Source: Siphonodentalium dalli (lineage: Eukaryota; Mollusca; Scaphopoda; Gadilida; Siphonodentaliidae). From it: a DNA stretch of 64,000 bases. The notes under the pieces are model-generated. The model did no database searches and was not told the DNA's origin. It was given only the letters and a program-made list of their open reading frames with translations. The DNA is taken from the NCBI GenBank assembly GCA_032622095.1, contig CP136069.1:33206194-33270193 (forward strand), written 5' to 3'. Made by a program: the position numbers and the translations under genes. Positions 4,230 through 56,777 of this stretch are shown here, piece by piece. Every line of letters begins with the position of its first letter. The first letter of the stretch is position 1.

Positions 4230-6023
4230 AGATATATAGCCACAACAAAGTGCTGGCCTACGGAGGTAGCCATTGTTGCTGTTGTTGCGGCATGAATTAT
4301 GTTTACTTTCCAAAGCCCCCGCTGTTTTCAATGGGAGATACGTATCTATTTATAGTATGTGGGTATTTCCACCGGAAGCGACCGCCGTGCGTTTATCTCA
4401 TTCTGGACTCCTCGACCTATGACCTCTGGGGCCAAGCTCTCTGGTGCAATTAGTAGTCATTTTTCGCGGATGATTATATCCAGATCTGGAAGAAATGTGT
4501 CACTACTCTAGATCCGACGTTCTACGTAACATAGTCCGATTACGCGTGTTGGTATTTGACGAGGTGCTCGGTCCAATACTTATGTATGGCTCGTGTTCTG
4601 TGATCACCAAAGATCCGGAAACATGGGTCAACCATCCGATTTTAATGCAGTTGGTACCACCGATTTACGGTGTATGTTATGACCCGACAACGGCAAATCT
4701 GCCTGACATTTGTGTCACATCGCAACAATTGTACTATTGGGCTTGTCTACAAAAGTCACTTTAGGTCGTGCGGTAATTTTACATAGATATTTTATGGACT
4801 ATTCTATATCAGTGTTGTAATACAACACTTGTATACGGTATTGTTTAATTCGACGCTAAATGTAAATGTTTTCGTACCCACGAACCGACGTAATACAACT
4901 AAATTCAAATTAGCGCGCCTGTACTTGACCCAGGCACCGACCTAAAAATAACGTGAAATAGTTCGAACCAATCATGTCGTCGTATTAAAGCCGAGTCTGA
5001 AACGGTGAAGGAAACTGATGGGGTTTGCCGAATGCTTTTGTCTGTTAAATGCGTGAAACATTCACAGATACCGTTATTTTTTAAAAGTCAGTCTTTCAAT
5101 CGCAATAACAAGTTTAGACTCGGTCGGGTTAGCGGAAACAAACCTCTTTTTTGTTTAGGCCTCATAGAAATGCGCCGCTAGTGCCCATATATGCCATTGA
5201 CTTACCACCCCATGTATTACTTAATTATAATGATATTATTTCTAGAAATCCGGGATATATACGACACAGTGATCTACCTATTCTGATCAAAACCTGGCTA
5301 TATTTGAATGAGGTTCGTACATAGATATTTCTCCACATGTGTCAGGAAGATACCTGTCTCCAAACAGTGTCTTCTTGCTATTTTACCTGTCATTCCTCAC
5401 GCATCGCAGACAAACTAACAATGTTCTGGTTTGAACTAGAACATATTGTCTAGTAACAACCACGTTAACTTATCTTTTGTACGTACATCTATTGAGCAAA
5501 GTATACAATTCTTCACTAAATAAATTGCATAAATGTACAAGTAACAATATGGCATACTTACCTTTTGTGATTCTGTCACTAAATGGGCAAATTTCTATTT
5601 ACCTCAAAATCTTCGATTCATCTCTCCCGCCTTGTAATGCGACATTCCTTCAGGAACAACAGTGTGCAGACGTCAGCAATACATGCGCTACAAGGAGATA
5701 AATCAGGTCTGTTATAAGATTTCAGAAAAAAACATGTGCGTTGCATTACGACCGCGTGCACAGTATAAATATTTCGTTTTTATCATTCTTACTGACAACA
5801 CATGTTTCATTTATTATGAGCAAAAAACTAAGACGATATGACTTAGATCATAAATATAACTAACTTGGTAACACTGCAATACTTTCCAAACATGATAATC
5901 TTGGCCTCTAGTTCGTTTGTGTCCACTGAAAACAATAATCTGATGCCTAATTGATCGGCACATTGATGAAACCTCGGTGCCGTTAATGAAACCCCAAAGA
6001 GAGCATCCCAAAAAAAAGTTTAT
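4230..6023. other. Intergenic, no supported gene
   Basis: There are several short open frames but none with a recognisable domain, splice context or conserved motif. I see no repeats of note apart from the tandem array that follows. Confidence 0.4.
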
Positions 6024-6210
6024 CGTTAATAAGCCATGGTTGAGTGAGATTTCTGTGGAGGTGTCGTTAATAAGCCATGGTTGATTGAGATTTCTGAGGA
6101 GGTGTCGTTAATAAGCCATGTTTGATTAACATTTCTGAGGAGGTGTCGTTAATAAGCCATGGTTGATTGAAATTTCTGAGGAGGTGTCGTTAATAAGGCA
6201 TGGCTGACTG
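6024..6210 (+). repeat. 41-bp tandem repeat, about 4.6 units
   Basis: The units start at 6024, 6065, 6106, 6147 and 6188, each opening CGTTAATAAGCCATGGTTGA and continuing through GATTTCTGAGGAGGTGT. The last unit decays after GGCATGGCTGA. Spacing is exactly 41 bp and divergence is a few percent. Confidence 0.9.
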
Positions 6211-6481
6211 TGTCATTTTTTGCGATATGTGTGCAATGCGAATGAGTTCGGTTTTAAGTATTGTGCATTTTTATATTATAATTTGAAAATTGGTTAAGGC
6301 AATTCTGTCTAATTTACTGTCAAATACAAACGAGCATCAGTCTTGAAGTTTGTCAAATGCACCTTAATGCCCAGTATTGCTCTGTATTCATTTACTGCTC
6401 AGGCTGAGTTTAATAAACATCCATTCAAAATGTATGTCGGCAACTACATGATAACTGAACAAACTTAACTTTATCTAGCTA

Positions 6482-6536
6482 GGTGATATATATCGCAGTG
6501 GCTACAATGATGTACAGATTCTTATCTAGCTAGGTG

Positions 6537-6576
<40 letters not shown>

Positions 6577-6660
6577 AGATATACATTCGAATGAATTCTC
6601 ATAAAAAGCATCTGTACAACATTGTAGTCACCTGCGATATATATATATGTGGTTACTGGC
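6482..6660. repeat. Imperfect hairpin with (AT)n core
   Basis: The left arm (6485-6525) contains ATATATCGCAGTGGCTACAA and GTACAGAT. Its imperfect reverse complement lies at 6612-6650 (ATCTGTACAACATTGTAGTC). An uninterrupted AT dinucleotide run lies at about 6546-6574 between them, and TAGCTAGGTGATATATA occurs twice. It may be a small MITE or a simple cruciform-forming site. Confidence 0.6.
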
Positions 6661-6989
6661 CATTTTTCGTGGATTGGGGGGGGGGCATCAGAGCGTGATG
6701 ATATTTTTGTAGAATTCATACTGTGCTTTTGATTAAAACGTATATATTAAACAGTAATATCAAAATCGGAGTATGCATCATGATTGTACTCACAGTGTGC
6801 CGGTGAACATAATGTCATATTACGTAATGCCATGAACCGATTCGAACAATATATGAATCAAGCCGATCTGCCCACACAGTCCAGATATAGGCACATTTAG
6901 AACTAGCGACGGGGAAAATCCCTCGGGTCTTCTTTTCGCCAACCTCAACGGATATAATCGCTTGGATAATAACCACCCCCGTGTACGTG

Positions 6990-7137
6990 GTATCGCCAAA
7001 GCCGAGGGTATCGCCAAAATAAAGCCGAGGAAATGAGAAAGTCATTTTCACGTATATTATATGGGGATATGTTTGTTTCTCATCGTAAAGCAGACATCGA
7101 GCATCGTATGTGTATGTCCACACGAAGCAGGAGTATT
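6990..7137. repeat. Long inverted repeat, left arm, outer part
   Basis: The reverse complement of this stretch matches 17070-17210, including a twice-repeated CCTCGGCTTTGGCGATA motif at the outer edge. The arm is cut at 7137 by a LINE insertion and resumes at 13965. Outside about 6990 and 17210 the two arms lose similarity, so these are the approximate outer ends. Confidence 0.8.
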
Positions 7138-7524
7138 CAATTCAATTCAATTCAATTTTATTTAGTAATATATAACAAACATGATAATGTATAATACAAA
7201 AATCAAACAAAATATAGTATATATTACTGGGAGATGGCATGACCTACTGGTCGTCTTCCTGCACTCTCCCAAACTTAGATAATTATATTCCGACTCTGAT
7301 CCCAAATGACAGTATATAATGGTGATACAAGTTTTTTTTATCTATAGTAGTGTAGACAACGATACTTTTGTGGTTTAGTTTTTTCCATAGCCTAAGTGGC
7401 AATTCAGTAAAATATCGTTCAATTATGATATATAATATAAATTTTGGTATAATATAAGACTGATGATATAGTTGTATTCTTCACACATAATGGGCGTACA
7501 TGCGTTGGATTCACTTAACAATTC

Positions 7525-10500
7525 TTACATATATAAAGTTGATTCATCCATGAACGGATAACAGTCGAAACAGTATAGGTTTTTACAAAGAACACTGTCA
7601 AGATAGCTGCTTATGATATCTTCAGATACGTCTCGTTTAAATTTGGAACGTGGTAAAACTAACTGTAAAGATGTATCTAGTTCTTTCCAAAGTTTCGGGA
7701 AGATATGGTAAGGAAGGTTTTCGGTAAAGGATGTTCTAGATTTTGTTCCACCTAATTTGCCACTTTGTCTTGTTACCATTGTTGGGTTGTGGTATATGCG
7801 ATAAGTGTTCTGAAATGAGATAGGTAGTTGGTTGCAGAACCAATCGTTCATGAATTGATAGGTGCGTAATTTATAAAGATCGTGAGCTTTTAGTATATTA
7901 CTTTTTTTGAAAAGTGGATCGGTGTGGCTGTTATATCTTTTATTATGTATAATGCGAATTGCCTTTTTCTGCAATACTATTAATTTATTAAACGTATTCG
8001 AATTTCCCCAAATTTCTATGCCATATGTTAGGTGACTATGAATTAGACTGTAATACAACTGTCGTAAATTCCTTTCTGGAAGAATGTGTTTAACTCTGTT
8101 AATTGCATATAGAGCTCTAGACATTCTTGTTGCAATTAAAGCTGTGTGGTTGTTGAATGTTAAATTTTCCTCGAGATGAATACCAAGGAATTTGAAGGAT
8201 TTTTCTTTGCAGTTGCTTCCTATTCTTTCAATTATTTGACCATTTATCTGTAGAGTATGTTTCGTGCAATTATAGTTTCCACCAGTAGGTTGAAATAAAA
8301 TATATTTGGTTTTCTTGGCATTTAATGACAGTTTGTTAGCCTTGCACCATTTATTGAGTAATTCAAGTTGAATATTTGTGCGCTTAAAAAGTAAATCTAA
8401 ATTATGATGAGACGCATATACAGTGGTATCATCTGCAAATGATAAAAGGGATAATGATGTACTCCGGTGCATGTCATTCACATAGATAAGAAAAAGTAAA
8501 GGGCCTAAGATAGATCCTTGAGGGACACCAGTTGTAATATGGATTTCACTTGATACACAACCGTCTAAATCTACATATTGCACTCTATCTCTTAAGTAAC
8601 TCTCGAACCAATGTTTTTTATTGCCTCGAACTCCATAAAATTCAAGTTTAGATAATAGTATATCGTGATTTATGGTATCGAAAGCTTTTGAGAAGTCAAT
8701 AAAAGTTGTTAATGTACAATCTTTTGATTTCTTGTCATTATTAATCACAATGTCGTTAAGAAGAAGTCGGATTATTGGGTGAACTGTAGAATGGCCTCTC
8801 CGGAAGCCATATTGTTCTTTATAGAATTTATCATGGAAAAATTCCACTAACCTGTTACATACCACTTTCTCTAGGATTTTAGAAAATGTGGGGAGAATAC
8901 TAATTGGACGATAATTTTGAATCATATTTCTTTCATTGGATTTAAATAGAGGAATAACTCTAGCTATTTTCATCTCTTTTGGAACAATGCCTGCCTCTAA
9001 TGAATTATTTATTATATGACATAGAGGTATTGAAATTTCCTCAATAATTTGTTTCAATAAACCTGCTGAAATCCCCTTGTTATCTTTGCTTTGTTTATTC
9101 TTCATTTTGTTAACAATATAACCCAATTCTTCTACGGTGGTGGGTCGCACGAACATACTTCTAATTTCAGGTTGGCCAAGATAGCTAGAGAAATCCATAT
9201 TAGAGTTAGTCGATATTTTATCTGCTTCGCGTTCGCCGATTGTTGAGAAGAATTTGTTAAATTCTTCAGACACTTGTTGTTTATTGTGGATAGGTTTCCC
9301 TTCAATCACAAAAATGTGGGGGTATTGAGGTTTCTTATTGCTCTTTTGAATGACTTCGCGTAATATGTTCCAAGTTTTTTTCATGTCAGATCTACAAGAG
9401 TTCAGAATATTCTCATAGTATGTCCGTTTGCTGTATCTTTTAATTCGATTAAAGTATCTGCAATACTCCTTATATAGTTCAATATTACCGTCAGTGGGGT
9501 TCTTCAATTTCTTTCTATATAATTTATCTTTGTGCAAAGACGATTTAAGGAGCCCACCGGTCATCCAAGGCTTTAGTTTTATGTGTTTTCGTTTGATTTG
9601 TACTACTCTAAGAGGAAAGGCAACATCATAACCTTTTAAAAACAGATTCATGAATGAGTCATACGACCCATCAGGACTAGATGCATGTAACACAGAGTCA
9701 TAATTTGTCGAAGACAATATACGTTTAAAACATGATACATTATCTTCACAAAAGCTCCTCTGTAATTGTGTTCCTAACTGTTGATGACTGTGGAGAATTG
9801 CCTTTTCCCGATAAAATATACCAAAATGGTCACTGACATCGGTTATAACAATACCCGATTGGAAGCTCATCAAGGGGTCATTAGTAAGTATTTGATCTAT
9901 CAATGTGGCAGTATATGTGGTAACTCTCGTCGGTCTAAGAATGGTTGGTAGAAACCCATCAGCAAAAAACGAGTTAATAAATTCATTTGTTTTCACGTGT
10001 AATCCGAATTTCAACAAGTCAATATTATAATCACCCATTAAAAACCCTTTTTTGTGCTCAGAATTAATTTTTGTCATTATCTCCTTCATTGTTTTGATAA
10101 ATTTATCTATATCAGCCTTTGGCTGAGTGTTAGGTCTGTATATAATTCCAACAATATACGGCTTTCTATGATGTTCGGATATCTCTATGAAGAGTGATTC
10201 AAAAACGTGAGGCAAAAAAATTGATAAATCTTCCCGAATTTTAAAGTTCAGGTCATCTCTAATGAAAAGCCCAACGCCCCCTCTTGAATCATCATCATCG
10301 GGTCTACATTTTTTTATGAGAGGATGATAACCTACTAATGAGAAATTAATGTTATCAGGGGTGCGAAATATTTCAGTGAGACCTATGACTCCAAATTTGT
10401 CATTCGTATTTTGTAGTTCGTAAATCAAAGTGTTGAAAGCATCCCAATTGGCATTGAGACTTTGACAATTTAAGGAAAACAATGAAACTTGACTTTTTGT

Positions 10501-17210: not shown

Positions 17211-19479
17211 CTGCGAATTAATATCCAATCGCGGTCATCTTTACACATCACGTGATTGGTATAACGTGGAGAATGATCCTTGGACATATTGTCTTTATTT
17301 TACAACCTACATTTCGTCACGAAGTGCTTTGTCTGACGCAGCTCAACGTCGCCAGTTGAACAGCCATGGTCAGTCTGGGGACATAAGACAAGTTGAAATG
17401 GAAAAAAACACCATCAGACGCTACATGAAATAACTGGATACACAATTCAATATCGAACACAATAGTGTATTTTATGTGGCTCTTCTTGTTCCAACTATGT
17501 CATGTTAAACATACCTATCCTAATAATAAGACAAATGCGTTTCTTAAACAGTATGGTATAGAACCCCCAATGCCCCTTTAATAGCAATGCACGAACAAAC
17601 TGTTACAAGACTCCACATATCTCGGACAAGTCTCTGTTGGCGTACAATTGGTGTTCATGTGAACTATGCTATGTTATACCCACGTATCTCGATATACATA
17701 CACATCATTATTTTGCAAGAGTCCACATATCTCGGTTGATGTCGATAATTGGTGTTTGCGCCAATTCTACAGAAACACTATATGCGTTCCTTGTATCGGA
17801 TTCCTGGTCCGACTCATTGCTAGTGTTACTAGTTGATTGTGTGTTATAAGCTCAAACAATACCAAGGGAAGTATCAGAAACGCATGACTCTTGGACTGTG
17901 CAGATTCTGAATAAGTTATTCCGAAACACCAGACAAGGTAAGTTTATATTTTCAGAACCGACCATTCTCCCCTCCGCTATCCCCCTACCACGAACAGGAG
18001 TCCACTGTAAACTTTATCCGATGATTTTAATCGCGTTGCGCAGGAGACAATTCGAACTGTATTCCTCTGTACACTTTGTATGATGAATTTGAATCGTGTT
18101 ACACTGGAGATAATTTGAACATTAGAGACATTAATGGCCTGAATCTTAGTTTACTCAGCAGTGCTCTCATTTGTCACATGCTGATCTTGCGCTGGAAATG
18201 TAAATAATTTATTTTGACGAACCGCTGTATGCGGAATTCGTATGCCGGGATTACTAAATACTTAATTTAAGTCATAATTCACGATATATGTACCACGATA
18301 TAAAAAGCGCTCGTTCGTGTCCAGCGTATTTATGGTATGGTGCAAATAAAGAGCGTTTGTCTTATTGTTGTGTGGAAAAATTGAAATTAATTACTGTACA
18401 TACACACACTATTAAGTCCATCCCTGAGGATAAGCCAGGTATATGTTTTTGCTCCCTAAAATCATGGGGTTCGTATATAAGCCCACTCCCATTTTATAAC
18501 TTATAGAGGGTGAGTATACATTAACGTCAGGTTGACATTGAATGCAGATGACAAAAATTAATGCAAACCTAATTAATACTACCTGACCCATTGTGTTTCA
18601 CAAAATGCTGATGATCTTATCATCTTAGTGTCGTATTTTAAATATCTATCTAATGTAATAAAACACAAAACACATTATATTCATTGAATAAAATAATACA
18701 CATCATGATTCATATAAAACAACTACATCCGATTTGATAAATGAAAACTGAGAATTTGCATATGGGGTCCTCGGATGTGAGCCCAGTCCCAAGATTTTGT
18801 GTAAAACAAAGGACCCCGACATGGCTTCCGGGCTTACTGGTGTGCGTATACAGTAATGGAACTTTGTTTTAAATCGGTGGCATAAAAGTGAGGTCCATTC
18901 ATAAATTACAAACGCAGGACTGAAAAAAATAATCCAGCCAAATTTATTGTCTCCCACAGATTCTGATCCACCCCTTTCCCCCACGATTTAAACACATGTA
19001 TTGCTTTTGGTCTCAACTTAATGAAGCCAAGAAGTGATTCATCCGATTGAACCCAAATTTAAAGTTGATGTTCGGGGTTCGGTTTTCATCAAGACCAAAT
19101 CTTAGTCCCGGGGATTTGATCAAAACCCCAGGATACATATATGAATTTGAGGGCGCAATTTAAACCAAATATAACCATACTGGAATACACTATTAGTCTT
19201 CAAACGTAATCGTTACTGTTGCTGTGCTGAATGATCGCCGGTTGTCGATCTAACACGTGGTCATCGGCAGCCATCTTGAATAATATTCTTTGCATGACCA
19301 AATTGTTAGACACGCCCTATATCCATCAGATTTCATCAGATTCACCCCAAATGAATCTTCGGGTGACCTCTTGGTGGGATTGGCGCCCATCAGAAATAAT
19401 TTTAGGTCAACTTTCTTTAAGCTACGTTTGAGCTATCATCGTCTGATGATACACTTGCGCTGTAACCCTTTAATGACTG
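17211..19479. other. Intergenic with short direct repeats
   Basis: No gene was recognised. Two weak direct-repeat pairs are visible. One shares CCACATATCTCGG and AATTGGTGTT (about 17613-17655 and 17722-17758). A second is about 60 bp (18004-18058 and 18064-18121), diverged about 30%. A segment with GAGCCCAGTCCCAAGATTTT (18778) resembles one near 18478. Confidence 0.45.
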
Positions 19480-21070
19480 TAGCTTCCTGAATGTTTGCGA
19501 AAACCCTGCGTCAACGCGGAGAATCAATGTCCATAGTTTTTGTGATCGAATTAAAAAAAAATGAAATTTTTTAAGTTTAAAAAAAATAATTATGATTTTT
19601 TGAAAAATTTCAGTGTTATTCCCCCACTATATAACACTATTGGGATAAGTCTATGCACCCAAATAATTCTAATGAGATTCCACACAGAGGTCTTGACATT
19701 ATTCTAAGATGTGTACACTCTGCTAACATAGCTATAACTCATATGGTACTTATAAAGAACGATTATTGTCCAAAACAAATGGCACCGATCCCAAGAAAAT
19801 TATTCCACAGAGCTCTGTGAAAGAGGAATTTTTACAGAGTTCTGTGGAATAATTTTGATTATATTCAGATTACATAGAGGTCTTGAATATTGCTTTGAAA
19901 ATAAGACTGGTATTTGTATTGGCGGTGTCAACAGACATAGATAGGCGGTGCCAATTAGTGCCATAACTTTGGCACCGGTGCTAGCATTTTGCAGGTAACC
20001 CTTGGCGGGAGCTGCGCTGGCGCAACATTAATGACCATGTACCAATGCATTCTATTATATATGCAAGTCGACCATAGATCGCCTCGCATATATAAGAGAA
20101 CGCATTGGCCTAACTGTTCTTTATAATTTATGTTATCAATTGTTCTTACATTCTTTAACAATTGTTATCATTTTTATAATTTTGTCTTACATTCTATAAC
20201 AATTTTTATAATTTTTTCTGATATTTTTTAACAATTTTATCATGTTTTATCCTTTTTTATTACATTATTTATAAATTTTTATCATTTCTCTTACATTCTT
20301 TAACAATTATTATCAGTTTTTATCATTATTACTTGCATACTTTGATCATTTTTTTTTCATTGTTTCTTACATGTTTTAACAATTATACTAAATAATATAA
20401 AATTTGTTAGGCCAATGCATTCTCATAAAAATGCGAGCCAACCTGTGGTCGACTCGCATATATAAGAATAAGAGAATGAATCGGCGCAGGGTTTTCGCAA
20501 AAGTTCAGGAAGCTCCCGTCATGAATGTGTTAACCGATGGCTAAGCATCGGTGCTAACGTTATGGCACCAATTGGCACTGCCTATCTATGTACTGTTGAT
20601 ACTGTCAATTGTGTAATCCTAGTCAAAGCAATTTTCAGCACCTCAATGTAATCAGAATACAATCAAAATTATTCCACAGAACGCTGTAAGAATTCTCTTT
20701 TCCAAAGACATATCCCCAGAGAGATCGTTGAAATTATTTGGTTGGAATCGGTACCATTTTGAGTTTTTTTTTTAAATAAACGCTCTTTATTATGAACGTA
20801 TCATCTATAGCTATGTTAGCAGATTCCACATATTTTAGAATAATTTCAAGACCTCTGCGTGGAATCACCACCAGAATCACGTGGGTGCAGACTTCTCCCA
20901 AGACAGTTATGGAATAGGGGGCATAATACATAATCGTTTTATCATTTCAAATTGTTTACCAAAAATTAAAACAAATTTAAAACTTTAAAAACTTTAAAAA
21001 AAAAAAAATTGTTTTTTAAACTTAAAATTTTTCAATAATCATAATTATTTTTTTCAATCTTTAAATCTTC
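19480..21070. mobile_element. Nested long palindrome (foldback element)
   Basis: Reverse-complement arms of about 480 bp or more (19625-20110 and 20405-20920). Outer A/T-rich ends also pair (TTTAAGTTT, AATAATTATGATT at 19571-19602 and 21012-21055). Inside the arms lie shared blocks such as AAATTATTCCACAGA, GATAGGCGGTGCCAATTAGT and the CCAATGCATTC...TATATGCGAG hairpin of the MITEs at 11 and 1379. The centre (20120-20400) is a degenerate array of TTCTTACATTCTTTAACAAT units. An extra hairpin with 23-bp arms sits at 19797-19856 in the left arm. There is no coding sequence. Confidence 0.82.
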
Positions 21071-40944: not shown

Positions 40945-41265
40945 CGTCCGAACCCATCGAACCCTAGCTAGTTACGCCCATTGAATCCTAGCTAGTTACG
41001 CTCATTGAACCCTAGCCAGTTACGCCCATCGAAACCTAGCTAGTTACGACCATCGAACCCTAGCCAGTTACGCCCATCGAACCCTAAGTAGTTACGCCCA
41101 TCGAACCATAGCTAGTCACGCCCATCGAACCCTAACCAGTTACGCCCATCAAACCATACTAGTTACACCCATCGAACCCTAGGTAGATACGCCCATCGAA
41201 CCCTTGCTAGTTACGCCCATCGAATCCTAGCCAGTTACGCCCATCGAACCCTAGCTATACCTAGC
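40945..41265 (+). repeat. 24-bp minisatellite, about 13 units
   Basis: The units open CGAACCCTAG and continue C(C/T)AGTTACGCCCAT, with point changes. A lone unit in the same orientation occurs at about 44974-44998, on the far side of the element at 41283-44972. That suggests the element inserted into a once-continuous array. Confidence 0.88.
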
Positions 41266-44200: not shown

Positions 44201-44972
44201 GTGGCTAGATGGGAAGATCACCAGGTGTACAGCTTTCGAGACAAACTCGTGAGTTGGACACCGGCATATGTATTGTTTGAAACATTCCGATTAGTCTGAC
44301 CCTTCTACCAAGAAGATAAGAGTAGAAAACTGTGCTGGTGTGAGCAATATAGATTAATCTGACGAAGAGTCGGAAGCTGGTCCAGATAATGCTGAACGTG
44401 GCAAATCAGAATAAGTTCAGATACTGTTGTTTTGATTCCTCGAAGTCATAATATGACTATTCGGCGCACCTATATACGGTTACGGTCATTATGGGTGCTA
44501 AGTGGAAAATGGATTTCCAAATGCCACATCGAAATTATTAATTGTGGGTTTTCATCCTTCCAGATGGCTGCGACCTATGTTAGAACTAATAGATGGCTTA
44601 TACACCGTTTTGTCCATACATATCGATATTATGACAAAAAGTTGAAATTAGTATGTGAAAATATCGAACTCTTTTCAATTTCTGGCCGCCAATTTGGCCG
44701 CCATCTTGATTGCGAAGGTTTGCCAAACTCAAGTGAATACTTAAAAGCAATGTTCCATATGAAAATGTAATTGCGGGTAGAATTCGCGTTCAATAACGCC
44801 CATCGTAAGAAAGTAAAGGAATGTAAGCTTGTTTTCAAAGTTCGGTCGCCATTTTGGACGCCATCTTCGATTTGGAAAACAATTCCTTGCATGAGATGCA
44901 AGGTAGTTACTTCACCTCAATATTTCAATCTCAACTGTCAGCATGTGTGGAGTTGTCTCGACAATAATGCCT
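41283..44972. mobile_element. Inverted-repeat element, copy A (intron 5)
   Basis: The left arm (about 42060-43440) is the reverse complement of the right arm (about 43520-44960), centred near 43480. Paired landmarks are CTTGCATCTC, CCCACAATTAAT, AGGTGCGCCGAATAGTCATA and AGGATCATGGTCAAGAAGTG on the reverse strand. The left end extends further (41283-42060) with degenerate units, each holding paired ATGGCGGCC motifs. The same layout recurs at 50886-55690. The arms contain broken frames but no transposase I recognise. Confidence 0.75.
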
Positions 44973-45589
44973 ATCGAACCCTAGCCAGTTACGCCCATGC
45001 TATCTGTAACACGCATATAGTGCGTGTTAGTGTACATTGTTTGTACATGTATATTGGTTGCACAAAACCCATGGAATCATTTTGAAACTATATTCCCTTT
45101 TTTTTCAATTATTGTGTATAATTTCAATATAGTCACATTCACCTTTCACAATGTTACGCTGGAATGCGCACAAGTTACCATCTCAAATAGAGAGACATAC
45201 ACATGTACAGATCGGCCTATGGTTCGACGGGTTCGGCCTTAACCGGAGACGGAACGACAGGTGATTGTGGTGTCAGCCCCATAACTTTGATCACAAGTTA
45301 CAAAAATCTGTAATTACATACCACACACAGCATTTGTATTGTCTTGTCATGGTCATGGTGTGATTGTTTTATAAGATCATCATTTGTTGACATCGGTGTT
45401 AGATTGTCATTGCGACTAACTGTTGTGTAGGAATTGCCGAGTCTAGATATCTATGTATATGTAGCTGTTGAGTCACATTTCATGAAAATTGGTATATTGA
45501 TAGATAATGCTCAAATTTGTTACACATATGTTGCGCTATGCGCCTTAGCGATATAACCAACCGACCCTCAGTTAACATTCTATATGCAG

Positions 45590-45796
45590 GCTGTCCAATA
45601 TTACTGGGATATGATGAGTACTGGATGAATGGGCGTTACCATTGCCTCAAGTACCACGCAACACCAACACTCTCGTCTATGAACGCCAAGGCTGCATGTA
45701 TGAACGAATACGAAGGGGGACACCTGGTCGCCATTGAAAGCAGAACCATGTTGGATCAACTTGCAAGTCTGTTGTTAGAATATGGACATGGGACAG
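45590..45796 (+). CDS. Exon 6: N-terminal half of C-type-lectin-like domain
   Basis: Borders ATGCAG|GC at 45589 and ACAG|GTTAGT at 45796, phase 1. The 69 residues begin with the Cys-Pro hairpin (CPILLGY), then YWMNGRYHCLKY, then the first alpha helix and AACMNEYEGGHLVAIES, the strongest C-type-lectin signature, and the second helix LDQLASLLLEYGHGT. The first two cysteines form the extra hairpin disulfide of long-form domains; the third is the one that normally pairs with the last. The last 25 bp of the exon are the first part of the 44-bp unit that forms the huge minisatellite downstream. Confidence 0.85.
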
Positions 45797-48700
45797 GTTA
45801 GTGATCGGTATCATGTTGTTAGAGTATGGACATGGGACAGGTTAGCAATATGTACTATTTTTTTAGAGTATGGACATCGGACAGGTTAGTAATCTGTAAC
45901 ATGTTGTTAGAGTATGGACATGGGACAGGTTAGTAATTGGTATCATGTTGTTAGAGTATGGACATCGGACAGGTTAGTAATCTGTATCATGTTGTTAGAA
46001 TGTGGACATGGGACAGGTTAGTAATCTGCATCACGTTGCTAGAGTATGGGCATGGGACAGGTTCGTAATTGGTATCATGTTGTTAGAGTATGGACATCGG
46101 ACAGGTTAGTAATCTGTATCATGTTGTTAGAGTATGGACATGGGACAGGATAGTAATTGTTATCATGTTGTTAGAGTATGGACATGGGACAGGTTAGCAA
46201 TATGTACCATTTTTTTAGAGTATGGACATGGGGCAGGTTTGTAATCGGTTTCACGTTGTTGGAGTATGGACATGGGACATGTTAGTAATCGGTATTAAGT
46301 TGTTAGAGTATGAACATGGGGCAGGTTAGTAATCTGTATCATGTTGTTAGAGTATGGGCATGGGATAGGTTAGTAATCTGTATCATGTTGTTAGAGTATG
46401 AACATGGGGCAGGTTAGTAATTGGTATCATGTTGTTAGAGTATGGACATGGGACAGGTTAGTAATCTGTATCATGTTGTTAGAGAATGGACATGGGGCAG
46501 GTTAGTAATCGGTATCATGTTGTTAGAATATGGACATCGGACAGGTTAGTAGTCTGTATCATGTTGTTAGAGTATGGACATGGGTCAGGTTAATAATTGG
46601 TATCATGTTGTTAGAGTATGGACATGGGGCAGGTTAGTAATCTGTATCATGTTGTTAGAGTATGAACATGGGGCAGGTTAGTAATCTGTATCATGTTGTT
46701 AGAGTATGGACATGGGACAGGTTAGTAATTGGTATCATGTTATTAGAGTATGAACATGGAGCAGGTTAGTAATCGGTATCATGTTGTTAGAGTATGAACA
46801 TGGGACAGGTTAGTTATTGGTATTATGTTGTTAGAGTATGGACATGGGGCTGGTTAGTAATTGGTATCATGTTGTTAGAGTATGGACATGTGACAGGTTA
46901 GTAATCTGTATCATGTTGTTAGAGTATGGACATGGGACAGGTTAGTAGTCTGTATCATCTTGTTAGAGTATGGACATGGGGCAGGTTAGTAATTGGTATA
47001 ATGTTGTTAGATTATGGACATGGGGCAGGTTAGTAATTGGTATCATGTTGTTAGAGTATGGACATGGGGCTGGTTAGTAATTGGTATCATGTTGTTAGAG
47101 TATGGACATGGGACAGGTTAGTAATCTGTATCATGTTGTTAGAATATGAACATGGGACAGGTTAGTAATTGGTATTATGTTGTTAGAGTATGGACATGGG
47201 GCTGGTTAGTAATTGGTATCATGTTGTTAGAGTATGGACATGCGGCAGGTTAGTAATCGGTTTCATGTTGTTAGAATATGGACATGGGAAAGGTTAGTAA
47301 TCTGTATCATGTTGTTAGAGTATGGACATGGGGCAGGTTAGTAATTTGTATCATGTAGTTAGAGTATGGACATGGGACGGGTTGGTGATATGTACCATTT
47401 TTTTAGAGCATGGACATGGGACAGGTTAGCAATATATACTATTTTTTTAGAGTATGGACATGGGACAGGTTAGTAATCTGTATCATGTTGTAGAGTATGT
47501 ACATGGGACGGCTTAGTTATTGATATCATGTTGTTATAGTATGGACATGGGACAGGTTAGCAATATGTACCATTTGTGTAGAGTATGGACATGGGACAGG
47601 TTAGTAATCTGTATCATGTTGTTAGAGTATGGACATGGGACCGGTTAGTAATTGGTATCATGTTGTTAGAGTATTGACATGGGACAGGTTAGTAATCGGT
47701 GTCATGTTGTTAAATTATGGACATGGGACAGGTTAGTAATCAGTTTCATGTTGTTAGAGTATGGACATGGGACAGGTTAGTAATCTGTATCATGTTGTTA
47801 GAGTATGGACATGGGGCAGGTTAGTAATTGGTATCATGTTGTTAGAGAATGGACATGGGGCAGGTTATTACTCGGTGTAATGTTGTTAGAGAATGGACAT
47901 GGGGCAGGTTATTACTCGGTGTAATGTTGTTAGAGTATGGACATGGGACAGGTTAGTAATTGGTATCATGTTGTTAGAGTATGTTCATGTGGCAGGTTAG
48001 TAATTGGTATCATGTTGTTAGAGAATGGACATGGGGCAGGTTATTAATCGGTATAATGTTGTTAGAGTATGGACATTGGGCAGGTTAGTAATCGGTTTCA
48101 TGTTGTTAGGGTATGGACATGGGGCAGGTTAGCAATCTGTATCATTTTTGTAGAGTATGGACATGGGACAGGTTAGTAATCGGTTTCATGTTGTTAGAGT
48201 ATGGACATGGGGCAGGTTAGCAATATGTACCATTTTTGTAGAGTATGGACATGGGACAGGTTAGTAATCTGTATCATGTTGTTAGAGTATGGACATGGGG
48301 CAGGTTAGCAATATGTACCATTTGTGTAGAGTATGGACATTGGACAGGTTAGTAATCTGTGTCATGTTGTTAGCGTATGGACATGGGGCAGGTTAGCAAT
48401 ATGTACCATTTTTGTAGAGTATGGACATGGGACAGGTTAGTAAGTGGTATCATGTTGCTAGAGTATGGACATGGGATAGGTTAGTATTCGGTATCATGTT
48501 GTTAGAGTATGGACATGGGACAGGTTAGCAATATGTACCATTTTTTTAGAGTATGGACATGGGGCTGGTTTGTAATCGGTTTCACGTTGTTGGAGTATGG
48601 ACATGGGACATGTTAGTAATCGGTATCATGTTGTTAGAATATGGACATGGGTCAGGTTAGTAATTGGTATCATGTTGTTAGAGAATGGACATGGGGCAGG

Positions 48701-50268
48701 TTATTAATCGGTATAATGTTGTTAGAGTATGGACATGGGACAGGTTAGTAATTGGCATCATGTTGATATAGTATGGATATGGGACAGGTTAGTAATTGGT
48801 ATCATGTTGTTAGAGTATGGACATGGGGCAGGTTAGTAATTGGTATCATGTTGTTAGAGAATGGACATGGGGCAGGTTATTAATCGGTATAATGTTGTTA
48901 GAGTATGGACATGGGACTGGTTAGTAATTGGTATCATGTTGTTAGAATATGGACATGGGACAGGTTAGTAATCTGCATCACGTTGTTAGAGTATGGACAT
49001 GGGACATGTTAGTAATTGGTATCATGTTGTTGGAGTATTGGACATGGGACAGGTTAGTAATCGGTATCATGTTGTTAGAGTATGGACATGGGACAGGTTA
49101 TAAATTGGTATCATGTTGTTAGAGTATGGACATGGGACAGGTTAGTAATCGGTATCATGTATTTAGAGTATGGACATGGGACAGGATAGTAATCGGTATC
49201 ATGTTGTTTGAGTATGGACATGGGACATGTTAATAATCGGTATCATGTTGTTAGAGTATGGACATGGGACATGTTAGTAATTGGTATCATGTTGTTAGAG
49301 TATGGATGTGAGACATGTTAATAGTTGGTATCATGTTGTTTGAGTATGGACATGGGACAGGTTAATTATCGGTATTATGTTGTTAGAGTATGGACATGGG
49401 ACATGTTAGTAGTTGGTATCATGTCGTTCGAGTATGGACGTGGGACATGTTAGTAATCGGTATCATGTTGTTAGAATATGGACATGGGGCAGGTTAGTAA
49501 TCGGTATCATGTTGTTAGAATATGGACGTGGGACAGGTTAGTAATCTGTATCATGTTGTTAGAATATGGACGTGGGACAGGTTAGTAATCGGTATCATGT
49601 TGTTTGAGTATGGACATGGGACAGGTTAATAATCGGTATCATGTTGTTAGAGTATGGACATGGAACAGGTTAGTAATCGGTATCATCAAGTATGTTGTTA
49701 GAGTATGGACATGCGACATGTTAGTAATCGGTATTATGTTGTTAGTGTATGGACACTTGGGTCAGGTTAGTAATCGGTATCATGTTGTTAGAGTATGGTC
49801 ATGGGACGGGTTAGTAATCGGTATCATGTTGTTAGAGTATGGACATGGGACGGGTTAGTAATCGGTATCATGTTGCTGGATTATGGACTTGGGGTATGTT
49901 AGAAATCGGTATCATGGTGTTAGAGTGTGGACGTGGGACAGGTTAATAATTGGTATCATGTTGTTAGAATATGGACATGGGGCAGGTTAGTAAATGGTAT
50001 CATGTTGTTAGAATATGGACATGGGGCATGTTAGTAATCGGTATCATGTTGCTAGAGTATGGACATGGGGCAGGTTAGTATTCGGTATCATGTTGTTAGA
50101 GTATGGGCATGGGACAGGTTAGTAATCGGTGTCATGTTGTTAGAGGATGGACGTGGGACAGATTAGTAATCGGTATTATGTTGTTAGAGTATGGAAATGG
50201 GACAGGTTAGTAATCGAGATCATGTTGTTCGTGTATGAACATGTGACATGTTAGTAATCGGTATCATC
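45772..50268 (+). repeat. 44-bp minisatellite containing exon end and splice donor, about 102 units
   Basis: The consensus unit, starting from the donor, reads GTTAGTAATCGGTATCATGT then TGTTAGAGTATGGACATGGG then ACAG: 44 bp. The first unit overlaps the last 25 bp of exon 6. The array continues for about 4.5 kb in a single orientation with a few percent divergence. A variant with CAATATGTACCATTTTT in place of the usual middle recurs (for example 45849, 46198, 47389, 47571, 48226, 48529). Units carrying GACATGTTAGT are concentrated at the 3' end (49000-50250). Most units keep CAG|GTTAGT. Confidence 0.95.
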
Positions 50269-50885
50269 AATTATCGCACTTATAACCCGAGTGTCAAACT
50301 GTTCCCCGCACAGTGATGTAATAGTACACCTCAAGATGTGCACTATTTCACCAGCCCATATTAAGTTGCCTCAAAGGAGAGATTAGCAGCCGAGAAACAA
50401 TTTCGCACACGAATGTAAAGTGCCTCCTGAAATGGAGTCCCAGATTGCCACTTTTCGGGAGGCACACACACATATATGCGTGTTTGTGTGTGTATTTACA
50501 TTTCGAGAGGCAAATTATACGTCCCGTTGAGGTATCTAATTTCTAATTTGAGGAGACGGAATTAATAAATCTATAAATATTAATCTCCAAGGTTCAAGCA
50601 TGCAATTCATAACGGCCCTTGCAATCACCGATCTGAACATAGCATGTTCGGACCAATTTTCATAACATAATTAATGACCATTATAAGATTTCGTGATTTG
50701 AATCTATTGGTATTTAAAAAATGACGTTAACATTTGTGGAAATATATTTCGGTCTGGACCGCTTAAAATTCGGAGCCGACACCCCGACAATCGAGAATCA
50801 CTGGCTACGTCCCTGTCAGCATGCAGGGTTATTAATTACTTCCATTTCTGGATATACACTGGCACCACATGCACCGCGCTCGACC
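50269..50885 (+). other. Intron 6, unique segment after the minisatellite
   Basis: No exon or gene seen. A short dinucleotide stretch GTGTTTGTGTGTGT lies at 50480. GGCTACGTCCCTG at 50802 resembles the CAGGGACGTAGC-type end seen at 21328. Confidence 0.45.
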
Positions 50886-53800
50886 TTTGCACCCCATAGG
50901 ACACCCCACTAAATTTCTTCCTTAATGTCTCCTCTAATTGTTTTCGATGGTTAACACGAAAATAAGTGGCCGCAGACTCCAGACGAGATGGCGTCCGTCA
51001 TGGCGGCATTATTTGGTCGCTAATATAGTAAATATAATATGACATGAGGCTTTATTTTTGAATCTATTCCTTATTCTAATATACCACGCATACAAATTAG
51101 TCAAAATCTAATAACAAAAACCAATTTGGCGGCCAAAATGTGAAAATGTTCTACATGTTCGACATTTCACCAATTAACGTTTGTCTCTGTGTGAAAACAT
51201 GGGCATCTCGGTGTTATTTATTCATTTGTCTTACAGAAGAATTTTTTACGCACAGAATGAAACCACAATATGCATTCCTGGTCGGATATGTTTGCCCGAT
51301 ATCGCATTTCTCAAAATGCCGGTATAATCCGGTTGAAAAATCTCCGAAATTAGCTAATTTCATATGAATATTGTCATGACAACTCCATCCAGCACACTGC
51401 TGTAAGTGGGGAATATTGAGGCAAAGTACTTTCGTTGTATCTCGTCCAACAAAATTTGCCACAAATCCAAGATGGCGTCCAAAATGGTAGACAGATTTTG
51501 AAAAATCACCGCAAATCCCCCAGGTTCACTTTAGTGGCGTTATTGTCGTTATAATTCCATCCATGTTTACAGTTGAGTTTGAAATACTAAGACGAAGTAA
51601 TTACCTTACATATCATTCAATATATTGTTTCCCAAAATTAAGATAACGGCTAAAATTGTGACCGAGATTTGAACACACATATTCCTTTACTTTCTTTACT
51701 TTGCAATTTGCGTTATTGTTTAACGAATTCTATCCATATTTACATCTGAGTATGGAACATTGATACGCATTGATGCTCACAGCCAATATAGCGGCCAAAC
51801 TGGTGGCCGGAAATTGAAAAGTCGTCGATATTTTCACATATTAATTTCCACTTTTTTCATAATATCGATATGTATATACGAAACGATACATATATCATCT
51901 ATCGGTTCCTACTTAAAATCTCTTCAAACGCATAACATATATATTTGTCATCTAAAAGGACGAAAACGCACAATTAATAATTGAGTTGTGGCATTTAAAA
52001 ATGTCCATACTCCGGTGATGGCCGTAACCGAAGACGCTCCGATTATTCATATTATGACTTGCAAGATTCAGAATATTTACATGAGAACCGTTTCTGATTT
52101 GCCACATCCATAATTATATGTACCAGTTTCCATCTCTTCATCTGAATAAGCTGACTCGATCACATCAACAAAGTAGTCAGCACTTCCTAGAAGAAGGGTC
52201 CCTCTACTCTGAACGTTTCAAACAATCCAGTTTCCAGTGCCTAGCTCACGATTTTGCTAAAAATTCGACCGATTCGTTATTTGTTTTGCAAACTAGCTTT
52301 CAGAAGGTCATCTCTAGCTACGTTTTTCTCATACCTCATTGGACAAGTCACAAACGCATCAACGTACCTGGAAAACCCCGGCAATATTTCGAATGTTGCT
52401 AAGATTCTCATTCCCTTGGACATATGCCTCTCTGTTAAGGTCGTGTGAATATCATAACGTGCCCACACTTCTTGGCCGTGATCAGTAGCAATCTGTGTGA
52501 CCGCCCAACAGTCGTCTCGTCGAGGAGCTTCCAGCAGGGAAGAACAATACACGCGGGGTTAGTTTGTGGGATTGCGCCATGATATTGGGCCACAATCTAC
52601 ATATCCCAGGTGTATGTTTCAGATATATACTCTCATGCGTGTGGGTGTTGTTTTGTGTGGTAAAAATGTATTTCCAAAGTTTCGAAGCCGTTCTTAACCA
52701 ACTGGATCAGGTGTACCTGTGTACCTTTGTATGTGTGATATTATATGCTAGCCTTCTCCAAGACTAGGCTATACGACGATATGTTTCATAGTGTGATGGT
52801 ATGTCATTCAACGAATGAAGGTGTGCGTTGTTATCGCCCTTGTGGCAGGAAATTTGGTGCATTTACTTCACTTTTTCAAGAACAAGTTATAGTCTCGACG
52901 GCAATGACTGCGAACGTCTGGGGGAAATCCTTCAAAGGGAGCACGTGAGATGTGCCATTATGATAATAATAGAGACCTTTCGCATCCTCACGTTTACGAT
53001 TACGAATACGGATAGCTATTCGTAGTCGTAAGTCTATCCGTATGGACAAAAAGTCCTTTCGCAAAACGACTACGCGTAAGAGTTTTGACGAACACGTACC
53101 ATCATTATTTCGTACCACTTTTACAACTCAAAGCGTGTGTTTGGTATACAGTCCCTTAATACTTCACTTATCGTCTCATTTGCAACAATGCGATAATCAT
53201 GACCTGTTTATATTGTCAATAATTCGACCAGTCACAACGTACGACCCGGGATTCTCGTGATATATTATGGCAATACAGGTATAAATGCCAGGTCATATGT
53301 GGTGGAAATTCAGTTCGTTGTTATCATGGATTACCTGATAGGTGTTATGCTGATGTCCTAAATTTGGACCTCACATCAACCACGACGCCACCACTTCAAT
53401 ACCCTTTCAGTCCGCAATTTCATTTCAATGCGATTTCGGCAGGAAGACAGTCTAGCCAGATTATGCCATCCCCACAATTTACGACAGAATTATCCATAAT
53501 TGTCATCATTATTATGTAATATGTATGTGCAAGGACGTGGCTAGAGGGTTTCCGTTGGGGGTGTGCACACGACTACGGGCAATAGACCAGGACCCACCGG
53601 GCCGACTATGGTTGTTCGGCCCGGTGTGAGAAAATTGTGAAAACTAAACAAGAAAATCGCAAAATCCTAGCATCTAGACTGACCTCAAGCTTTCCTAGTG
53701 TTGGAAATTTCACACCTCATACTCTCCCTTAGTTTGGAAATTTTCAGTCAAGGATTTTAACCAAATGTAGTAAAATATTGTTTTCATAAACTCATAAGCA

Positions 53801-55690
53801 GTTTTTTATTGGCCACGGGGAGGGACCAGGACACACCGGGCGAAAGTTTTTTTTAAACGTGAACAAGAAAATCGCAAAATCCTGGCATCTAGACTAGCAT
53901 TCATAGAGTTGGGCATCTAGACTAGCATTCATAGAGTTGGAAATTTCCAACTGATGACAAATTGTCAGGGTTGGGGTTGGGGCGATTACATGCCAATATA
54001 ATCGATTACGATTACAATTACTTTTGATTTACATGATTACGATTACGATTACTGATTACATTTTTTTTCAATGTAATCGATTACGATTACAATTACTTTA
54101 GTAAATGTAATCGATTACTTTTTGATTACATTTGATTACAATTGCTAGTTTCCAACCATTTTGATCCCACAATTCCAGTGACAATTTTGACCAAATGTAG
54201 GACAATATTATTTTCTTAAATTAACTAGAAGTTTTTGACTGGCCACGGGGAGGGACCGGGACACAAGCTTTCCAAGTGTTGGAAATTTCCAACCTGACAC
54301 CCCTAAGGTTGGAAAATTTCTAACTGATGGCCATTTCAGTCCAAAAATGTTATCAAAAGAAAGAAAATATGCAAATATTGGTCCAAAAACAATAAATTCC
54401 CCACAATAAGTTGTTTGAAAATCAAACTACAATAACATTTTCAACCTATTGTTGGTGTAAAATTTCCAACTAATGTTGTGTCAGGTATGAAATTTCCAAC
54501 TGTTGAAAATTTTGACCAAAGTTGGGGTGAGACACCCCCCCCCCCTGTCGCCACGTCTCTGTGAATGCGTATTGGAAATCAAATATCATATCCTATCCAG
54601 GCCTATCACCTCTTTGGGTTTAGGAAATCAGACATAAGTTTGCTGTGCTCGCTGAGGTGCATCACTTCTGATTTGGTCCTATCAAATCGAAACAAAGTCG
54701 ACACGGTGATGTCGGTGGGTGTGCCAAATATTCTGTTAGTACCACCAAATCCATGTCAGTCGTGTAATTTTGGCGACTGGTTTCATAGTGCACTTCTTTT
54801 TATTACTGCAAAGTGTTGTGTCGCAGCCAGCGATTACTATCCGCTGTGAATAGCGATCTTATTTCGCGGGAAGCCAGCTGGGGAAGCTCGAGATTCACGA
54901 CGACGAGTACAGTGATTGCCAACTCAAACAACACACCGAGGTCGTGGCTCAATACAACTGGATGGTTTACATGATACACATATACAGTCTCGAACGGAGT
55001 AAAGTGATATATTGCAGAAAATAAATTTCAGGTGTTATTTGAGCTTATTAGAAACCATGAAATCGTAACCGTTATTGCGGATAGTAAAATACGACAACGA
55101 TTAGAAAGTACACAAATGTTGGTGACGTAGTACCCTATCCGTATCCGTAATCGTAAACGTGAGTTTTGCGAAAGGTCTCTAATAATAGGATAACGTAGAC
55201 GACTGTTGTTATTTCTCAGACTCATGGTCGGAATGGTGTTGGCACGAAACCATTCGATGTACACAAGGTATGTTGAACTGATTGTAAGATCTCAGAAATG
55301 CAACGTTCGTTCGTTGCGTTGAACATGTCATTCAGTTTTCTTGAATCATACCGAACACTACCCATCGTGAGAATGATAACAACGCATACCTTCTTTGAAT
55401 GACAAATCACTAAACTATCAGAGAAATCGTCTTTTAAGACTTCATGCCAGATCCAATTGATTAAGAACGACTTCCAAACGGGTGTGAAAATACAATATCA
55501 TCACACAAAGAAAGCGACTCCACGCATGAGATCCTGCCTGTATCTGAAAAATAGTCCTAGCGTAGGGAGGCGGAATTCACTTTCACTATGCCCACATATA
55601 CCAGTACCGCGTGTATTTTGTATTATATGTTGAGAGCTCTTCGATGAAACAACGGCTGGACGTCACACAAATTGCCTGCACTCATCTGAA
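50886..55690. mobile_element. Inverted-repeat element, copy B (intron 6)
   Basis: 50886-52960 matches the left part of copy A (41283-43430) in the same orientation: TTAATGTCTCCTCTAATTGT, the ATGGCGGCC units and the AATGGTCCCTCT region. 55200-55690 matches copy A's right arm from 43520. Between them sits a later insertion (52972-55179). The right arm is truncated compared with copy A. Confidence 0.72.
52972..55179. mobile_element. hAT-like element nested in copy B
   Basis: Terminal inverted repeats of about 45 bp open GAGACCTTTCGCA and contain CTCACGTTTACGATTACG. The 8-bp sequence TAATAATA flanks both sides exactly (52964-52971, 55180-55187), the duplication length of hAT transposons, though it is low-complexity. 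Inside are a GATTACGATTACAATTAC-type degenerate array (53990-54150) and a GGAAATTTCCAA / GGCCACGGGGAGGGACCAGG repeat (53540-54560) shared with 23100-23560. No transposase is recognised. Confidence 0.68.
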
Positions 55691-55944
55691 AAAGACACCG
55701 GGTACATACAATAACTAATTGTTGTGCATATTTATTTCTATTCGAGGTGGCAATTTGTCATCTTTATCAACATTTTTAACGATACGAGTGGTGCTATTCG
55801 AGGGACTCTATTTTATCCAGCGCATTAAATTTAAAACAAAAAGTCGTGAAATGGTTGAGTTATTTCTATGGCTGCACATTTTGTTGAAAATTACAAGGCA
55901 TGTCTGTGTAAAAATAACGTTTTATGTTCGCAGAGAATTTGAAT

Positions 55945-56111
55945 GGGGATAACAGTGTGGTGTTTTCGGAAAGGTACAGGGCGAATATAGTGTGGCAAAT
56001 TCCCATCAATGGGCTCCGGCTTCGGCTCCGCCGTCGCCCGCTAACTAAATTTGCCACATTTTATTCGCCCTGTACCTGTCCGAAATCACAAAACACCACA
56101 CCGTTATCCCC
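55945..56111. mobile_element. 167-bp hairpin MITE
   Basis: The arms pair almost fully: GGGGATAACAGTGTGGTG at the left end, its complement at the right end, and GTACAGGGCGAAT and TGTGGCAAATT further in. The short GC-rich loop contains GGCTCCGGCTTCGGCTCCG. It lies about 460 bp before the last exon. No target duplication is clear. Confidence 0.82.
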
Positions 56112-56571
56112 TAAATAGTTTCACAATAACATTTGAAATACTGACATTAAACTGACTCGATCTTGGGACAAATAATACAAACCCTTACTTGAGCAACCAT
56201 TGCTAATTATTTTTGGAATGATGCTATGGAACGCGTGGCAGAAAGACTGCTTTGAGTGTGATGATTTCACGAAAGTGAGGAAAAATACAAGAATCGGAAA
56301 CTTTACCCGGCAGAGAATGTAAATATAACTCAGCAGAGAAACAAATAGTAGTTCTCCCACATTGATTATGCTGACCTGCATCAACAGGCCGACCTCGACC
56401 ATAGTCACTTAGAGGAGTCACCCATTGTGTCTTTGAGGGGGACAACGGATAAACAAGCTAATGTGAAAGCTAAAGAATCTAATATTACTCATTCAGTGGT
56501 ATTTACCAAACAAATACTACGAAGGGTTAAAGACTACGTTGATTTATTGTGTTGTATTTTATCACACACAG

Positions 56572-56777
56572 ATGACCTGTTTGTAGCCGGGGAGCGAACT
56601 AACGGAACTTTCTACTTCGGTGGCGAGAAGGTCCCATCAGGATTGTGGGCACCCAGTTTCCCACATAAAAGAGCAAACGCAAAGCAGATTAAAATTCAAA
56701 GAGGAGCTGATGTGAAATATTACTTCACGAATCACGATGGAACATGGAGTAGGCCATACCTTTGTCAAATATACTGA
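56572..56777 (+). CDS. Exon 7: C-terminal half of C-type-lectin-like domain, stop
   Basis: Acceptor CACACACAG|AT at 56571, phase 1; stop TGA at 56775-56777. The 68 residues start DDLFVAGERTNGTFYFGG, match the lectin strand-and-loop region through GLWAPSFP, and end GTWSRPYLCQIY, the typical terminal cysteine strand. The cysteine pair usually found in the loop region is absent together, as are the EPN/QPD and WND calcium and sugar-binding motifs. This is therefore probably a lectin-like fold without classical calcium-dependent sugar binding (inference). Joining exon 6 to exon 7 across a 10.8-kb intron restores one complete domain, which strongly supports the model. Confidence 0.82.

Follow-up and report, generated by a model that had tools for sequence, protein, structure and literature searches.

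A donor-side mirage in the scaphopod Siphonodentalium dalli: 102 copies of an exon–intron junction, probably neutral

What becomes of an exon end when its 5′ splice site is followed, within the same intron, by about a hundred copies of itself? This question is raised by a stretch of 64 000 nucleotides from the scaphopod Siphonodentalium dalli (assembly GCA_032622095.1, contig CP136069.1, positions 33 206 194 to 33 270 193 of the forward strand; hereafter the window, with position 1 as its first letter), in which a 44 bp unit, taking in 27 bp from the end of a coding exon and 17 bp from the start of the intron behind it, forms a long minisatellite. The unit spans an exon–intron boundary and its 102 minisatellite-like copies carry splice signals (GT in 98/102), i.e. 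the array has the structure of a mirage and is a large new case of the kind first described in lancelets. Our preferred interpretation, to which we assign a probability of roughly 0.78, is a donor-side mirage, i.e. a neutral minisatellite that has grown downstream of a still functional donor. The argument turns on the following features.

45590–45796, + strand: penultimate coding exon (called ‘exon 6’ in these results), 207 bp, with a phase 1 end (...GGG ACA G|); open frame, AG before 45590, four close paralogues (88–94 %) and a distant one (73 %).
45797–56571, + strand: host intron, about 10.8 kb, from the coordinates of the exons in this gene and its paralogues.
45770–50266, + strand: the full array, 102 units with 44 bp each, from Tandem Repeats Finder (end at 50267) and unit segmentation.
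45770–45813, + strand: unit 1, the founder junction with 27 exonic and 17 intronic bases, from the unit alignment; present once in paralogues.
45797–45802, + strand: donor 1, GTTAGT, the sole donor with a full-length frame, from the frame script; GT at the matching place in paralogues.
50267–50791, + strand: ancestral intron continuation after the array, TCAATTATCGCACTTATAACC..., which directly follows the single junction in paralogues L002, L003 and L004 and was aligned to L003 over its whole length.
56572–56777, + strand: last coding exon (‘exon 7’), cacacacag|AT GAC CTG ... TGA, from the in-frame join and four further genome copies (82–93 %).

Within the window, Tandem Repeats Finder reported the 44 bp unit in 102.0 copies at 45770–50267 (86 % matches, score 6480), and segmentation against the consensus gave 102 head-to-tail units with a mean agreement of 92 % per unit, 89 of which are distinct. 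Both counts agree with the initial annotation, which had described a junction-derived minisatellite of about 100 units. Its derivation of the unit from an exon–intron junction also stands, but its division into 25 exonic and 19 intronic bases has to be replaced by 27 and 17 following comparison with the single-copy paralogues, with an ambiguity of about 1 bp at the breakpoint. The alignment of all units that it had proposed, run here on the 102 units, identifies unit 1 as the founder junction. As it had also stated, the donors run in the sense direction of the host gene. GT is kept in 98 units, CAG|GTTAGT is exact in 53/102 and GGTTAG in 72/102. In its sense strand, the array is rich in G (GC skew of 0.56 in both 2 kb windows inside it).

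The history of the array can be read from its paralogues. For the exon at 45590–45796, four close paralogues lie on the same contig and a distant one, which aligns over part of the exon, on contig 8; in the four paralogues, match coordinates indicate introns of around 1.4–13 kb. In L002 and L003, to which the protein and codon-position comparisons extend, the same two-exon join yields 136 residues without stops, 82 % identical to the window protein, and the matching exon of the distant paralogue L006 ends at CAG|GTGAGT. The joins and the paralogue exon ends, including the L006 donor, support 45796|45797 as the real exon end. The whole 44 bp unit occurs once each in L002, L003 and L004 (3.2 kb each), and 33 of its bases occur once in L005, at the exon end. 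Behind the junction, the introns of L002–L004 continue with TCATCA and bases resembling those after the last window unit. The window and L003 run colinearly to either side of the array, with 45417–45814 corresponding to positions 18635–19017 of L003 and 50223–50791 to its positions 18973–19505. Among the matches listed by a genome-wide DNA search, whose counts are lower bounds, only this array and the paralogue junctions contained the unit. The array was found in one of five close copies (the window gene and four paralogues). The single junction in the four close paralogues, together with the colinear flanks in L003, shows that an ancestral junction, present once at the outset, was amplified where it stood, with a gain of about 101 units. 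The exon pair and the donor exist in paralogues without the array, which sets this locus apart from intron gain by tandem duplication.

An assembly artefact or a collapsed satellite would be another source of such a structure, as long tandem arrays are hard to assemble and the copy number may be inexact. The number of distinct units, the colinearity of both flanks with L003 and the presence of similar arrays on other contigs make this explanation very remote.

Which donor could serve the gene follows from the reading frame. Joined in frame, 45590–45796 and 56572–56777 encode 136 residues ending in TGA; past donor 1, the reading continues as G GT TAG, i.e. with an immediate stop. When 96 GT donors were tested by script, the full-length frame was obtained from donor 1, and the other 95 led to a stop after 69 residues, upholding the earlier argument that only the first donor preserves the frame. 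The script missed two intact donors owing to small insertions; because the stop sits in unit 1, it applies to them as well. The label ‘lectin’ given to the host gene is weak: its sole basis is one sub-threshold match of the window protein to Lectin_C (E=0.13, 13.4 bits, below the cut-off of 22.6), Lectin_C did not match the two paralogue proteins, and the window protein had no Pfam match at E≤0.05 and no PDB match at E≤0.01. The identity of the host protein as a C-type lectin is therefore at best a weak suggestion. The 19 kb upstream of the L003 exon contained no other stretch that clearly matched the window as an exon.

The course of events that we propose would begin with a tandem duplication of 44 bp across the 3′ end of the exon and its 5′ splice site, from which a minisatellite arose that later expanded to 102 units in one paralogue. 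As all additional units lie 3′ of the authentic donor, they stay intronic while donor 1 is used. Exon definition and the order of synthesis favour donor 1, and the spliceosome would be expected to keep using it, with its short exon and open frame, and to remove the array as part of the intron. If a later donor were occasionally used, the immediate stop would follow, and the resulting RNA would probably undergo decay. The array itself would then be a neutral by-product of a minisatellite-rich genome.

Along the lines of the consequences inferred in the initial annotation, a different function could be imagined for so many donors, namely that some 100 sense donors gather the U1 small nuclear ribonucleoprotein on the nascent RNA, compete with donor 1 and divert a share of transcripts to the stop, with array length tuning the output. 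The geometry of the donors and the frame fit this idea, and so does U1 itself: the 5′ end ATACTTACCTG was seen in both of the U1 genes inspected in this genome (42 listed). Computed pairing with U1 amounts to −9.5 kcal/mol for donor 1, −10.3 kcal/mol for the commonest array form and −14.6 kcal/mol for CAG|GTAAGT; 54 of the 98 GT units, donor 1 included, pair at least as strongly as donor 1. The donors had been called near-consensus; with T at +3 and weaker pairing than CAG|GTAAGT, they are better described as moderate. Against a regulatory array stands the lack of donor-specific conservation: of 36 nine-column blocks, the one with the donor nonamer comes 14th, and columns −1 and +5 (G) are conserved at 0.88, below the column mean of 0.92, although the GT columns reach 0.98 each. 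We therefore rejected selection on the donors as a candidate, since conservation gives no sign that the extra copies are selected. Furthermore, only one of the five close copies has the array. Taken with the evidence from other genes and from amphioxus given below, we regard a regulatory role as quite improbable. Donor strength is weakly lower toward the 3′ end of the array (Spearman 0.23, p=0.02), which goes with a cluster of variants with T at −1 (CAT|GT), 10 of the 12 such units lying within units 74–102 (48981–50266). Of note, U1 small nuclear RNA genes stand in tandem with a period of about 2.15 kb at C1 103842444–103879156, with more clusters on C4 and C6.

Does the same happen at other genes? 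The species' own genome (2.23 Gb, 9 contigs) was searched for three successive perfect donors, i.e. CAGGTAAGT, CAGGTGAGT or AAGGTAAGT with gaps of 10–40, and the places listed comprised 100 of 1387, 764 and 126, respectively. Forty-four arrays were tested at their 5′ edge, and four others were set aside, namely a 26 bp satellite around C1 232 Mb (L015, L016, L020), a duplicate block at C1 257.64 Mb, an array at C3 229.05 Mb and a 21 bp satellite at C2 193.27 Mb (L050, L064), in which no edge was reached. The first junction was placed by hand in 11 loci (L009, L014, L017–L019, L043, L057, L058, L061–L063). The sense set consisted of frames of at least 20 residues open to the first donor, i.e. 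49 frames at 34 arrays, up to three each, the remaining 10/44 having no such frame; for the antisense control, the one longest frame per array was taken from the same 44 flanks.

Exon ends matching Pfam at E<1e-3 were found at 14 of the 44 arrays: USP47, NIDO (two copies), M16 peptidase, TCP-1 chaperonin, MRP-S22, signal peptide peptidase (two copies), ShK, aspartate carbamoyltransferase, MFS, amino-acid permease (two copies) and a dynein AAA lid. PDB chains added two arrays, STRAD alpha (2.7e-7) and PPP1R12A (5.4e-6), and PDB searches with the frames of L021 and L046 gave no match. Thus, 16/44 arrays start at a recognizable coding-exon end, including those of CCT6, CAD, PPP1R12, STRAD, MRPS22 and SPPL2, with 13 remaining when related copies (L023/L044, L037/L060 and L052/L053) are merged. 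L009 was not counted (MgtE match with E=0.0088, no PDB match). In the antisense control, a single array reached E<1e-3 (hydrolase, 1.7e-4), i.e. 14 versus 1 of 44 (Fisher p=0.0003), or 11/41 versus 1/44 without related copies (p=0.001). The protein alignment reaches the last residue before donor 1 in CCT6, CAD, PPP1R12A and SPPL2A, and the exonic share of the unit at the exon-end loci is estimated at 3 to 43 bp. Past donor 1, a stop is reached in no more than 17 codons at 15/16 exon-end arrays, and at 13 it comes before donor 2; in the CCT6 and MFS arrays, donor 2 precedes the stop but shifts the frame.

The window array is one of a class that recurs at exon ends of other genes, housekeeping genes included. 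Splicing seems to tolerate such arrays, and their presence in housekeeping genes again speaks against a regulatory role. The CCT6 exon with its array was the only copy found by a genome search, so that use of donor 1 is presumably needed there; for the CAD exon, one full copy was found, and a partial copy with a stop 29 kb away. In the SPPL2-like copies L037 and L060 (C6 222.41 and 223.14 Mb) and in the amino-acid permease copies L052 and L053 (C2 194.68 and 194.70 Mb), each pair has an array of one shared unit at the same exon end, which suggests that the mirage was inherited via gene duplication. Minisatellites of 32–33 bp that resemble these, with consensus donors AATACAG|GTAAGTGG, lie away from recognizable exon ends in L017 (C1 257.63 Mb) and L019 (C2 19.745 Mb; 52 copies).

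Several observations weigh against a neutral array behind a working donor. Codon-position differences between the window and L002 and L003 are spread as 12/9/9 and 14/7/12, and this spread does not show the strong constraint on the host stretch that would prove a gene in use. Competition between donors is chemically possible, as about half of the GT units equal or exceed donor 1 in pairing and as mirage copies could, according to PMC3087553, act as cryptic splice sites. In the STRAD array, donor 2 would keep the frame. Finally, Pfam-recognizable exon ends were present at 6/15 CAGGTGAGT arrays versus 6/40 single CAGGTGAGT sites, a difference short of significance (p=0.07; p=0.13 without the NIDO duplicate, and p=0.08 for all 44 arrays). 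These single sites were taken in order along contig 1 (40 loci, several of them mutual duplicates), family tallies being assigned to individual loci by reading the 49 frames, and the six exon ends belong to EGF (L098, L099), TSP1 (L092, L094), sushi (L107) and MPC (L112).

The last comparison, with the 16/44 arrays at recognizable exon ends, could also be taken to mean that the birth of arrays is actively promoted at exon ends, e.g. by transcription- or splicing-linked breakage or slippage at donors. Mirages would then be minisatellites directed to splice sites, which would be compatible with a neutral mirage. Apart from the insufficient significance, chance already provides many such arrays. 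In the 124 kb sampled, window included, 19 tandem arrays were found, corresponding to around 340 000 genome-wide if the sample is typical. Assuming some 200 000 donors per genome, in order of magnitude, and units of around 35 bp, about a thousand arrays would be expected to fall on donors by chance, again in order of magnitude, so that a neutral origin suffices. We regard favoured birth at exon ends as unlikely. That long minisatellites are no rarity in S. dalli is also indicated by an arbitrary 10 kb sample (L066), which holds a 48 bp array of 64 copies at 5693–8711.

Raw enrichment of donor triplets was rejected as evidence. Triples of CAGGTAAGT (810+577 versus 223+228 for the reversed pattern) and CAGGTGAGT (242+522 versus 157+18) exceeded their controls, but those of AAGGTAAGT went in the opposite direction (69+57 versus 83+157), and the 100 control places listed for the reversed motif belonged largely to a few repeated families. 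As a single 9-mer, CAGGTGAGT occurs 5610+6250 times and its reverse 5323+4911 times.

How does the window array compare with known systems? Mirages were, reportedly, originally described in amphioxus by Canestro et al. in 2002. PMC3087553 and PMC3902484 report such tandem duplications of exon–intron boundaries in amphioxus Adh3, TnC and the globins BflGb6 and BflGb9, and compare PGBD5 with them. As in the window, their unit spans the boundary and many units keep splice signals, with units of 10–72 bp at Adh3. In contrast, the window array has 102 units versus 6 and 3 in two BflGb6 haplotypes, and the genome of S. dalli has such arrays in many genes. In both papers, regular splicing is reported to be undisturbed by mirages, as judged in PMC3087553 by reverse transcription PCR, which is a further point against a regulatory array. 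PMC3087553 adds that cluster length varies, at Adh3 even somatically, and that intron gain may follow from mirages. For amphioxus, both regular splicing and instability of length are thus reported, whereas the window array is known from the sequence of one assembly. Intron gain via AGGT-bearing tandem duplication, as described in PMC4974935, shares the duplication across an exon–intron boundary but differs in that the window copies lie inside an existing intron and create no new intron or exon. Ordinary intronic minisatellites are likewise built of head-to-tail units that vary in sequence from one end to the other; the window unit differs from them in its origin from an exon end and in the usable donor that it contains. 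In the literature searched, mostly other than subscription journals, we recognized no report of such arrays outside lancelets, to which mirages, in the papers found, have so far been tied; in this genome, they form a recurrent class.

As a rule, donor choice is studied with a pair or a handful of competing sites. The exon considered here is followed by 97 additional GT donors, around half of which equal or exceed the authentic one in U1 pairing, and RNA from this animal would reveal to what extent position counts for more than donor strength. It is tempting to speculate, although we consider it rather doubtful, that exon ends are preferred birthplaces of minisatellites in this genome, that by extrapolation hundreds of genes, essential ones among them, carry runs of functional-looking donors directly behind the true one, and that the spliceosome, bound to a strict ‘first donor’ rule, disregards as many as a hundred equal competitors. 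If true, such birthplaces and such a rule would amount to a natural genome-wide test of 5′ splice site choice.

Elsewhere in the window, a 24 bp array of 12.8 copies (40953–41257) overlaps long open frames with an 8-residue repeat, e.g. SYAHRTLA. A stretch related to it, at about 44970–45237, matches the region of the L003 paralogue at 83 %.

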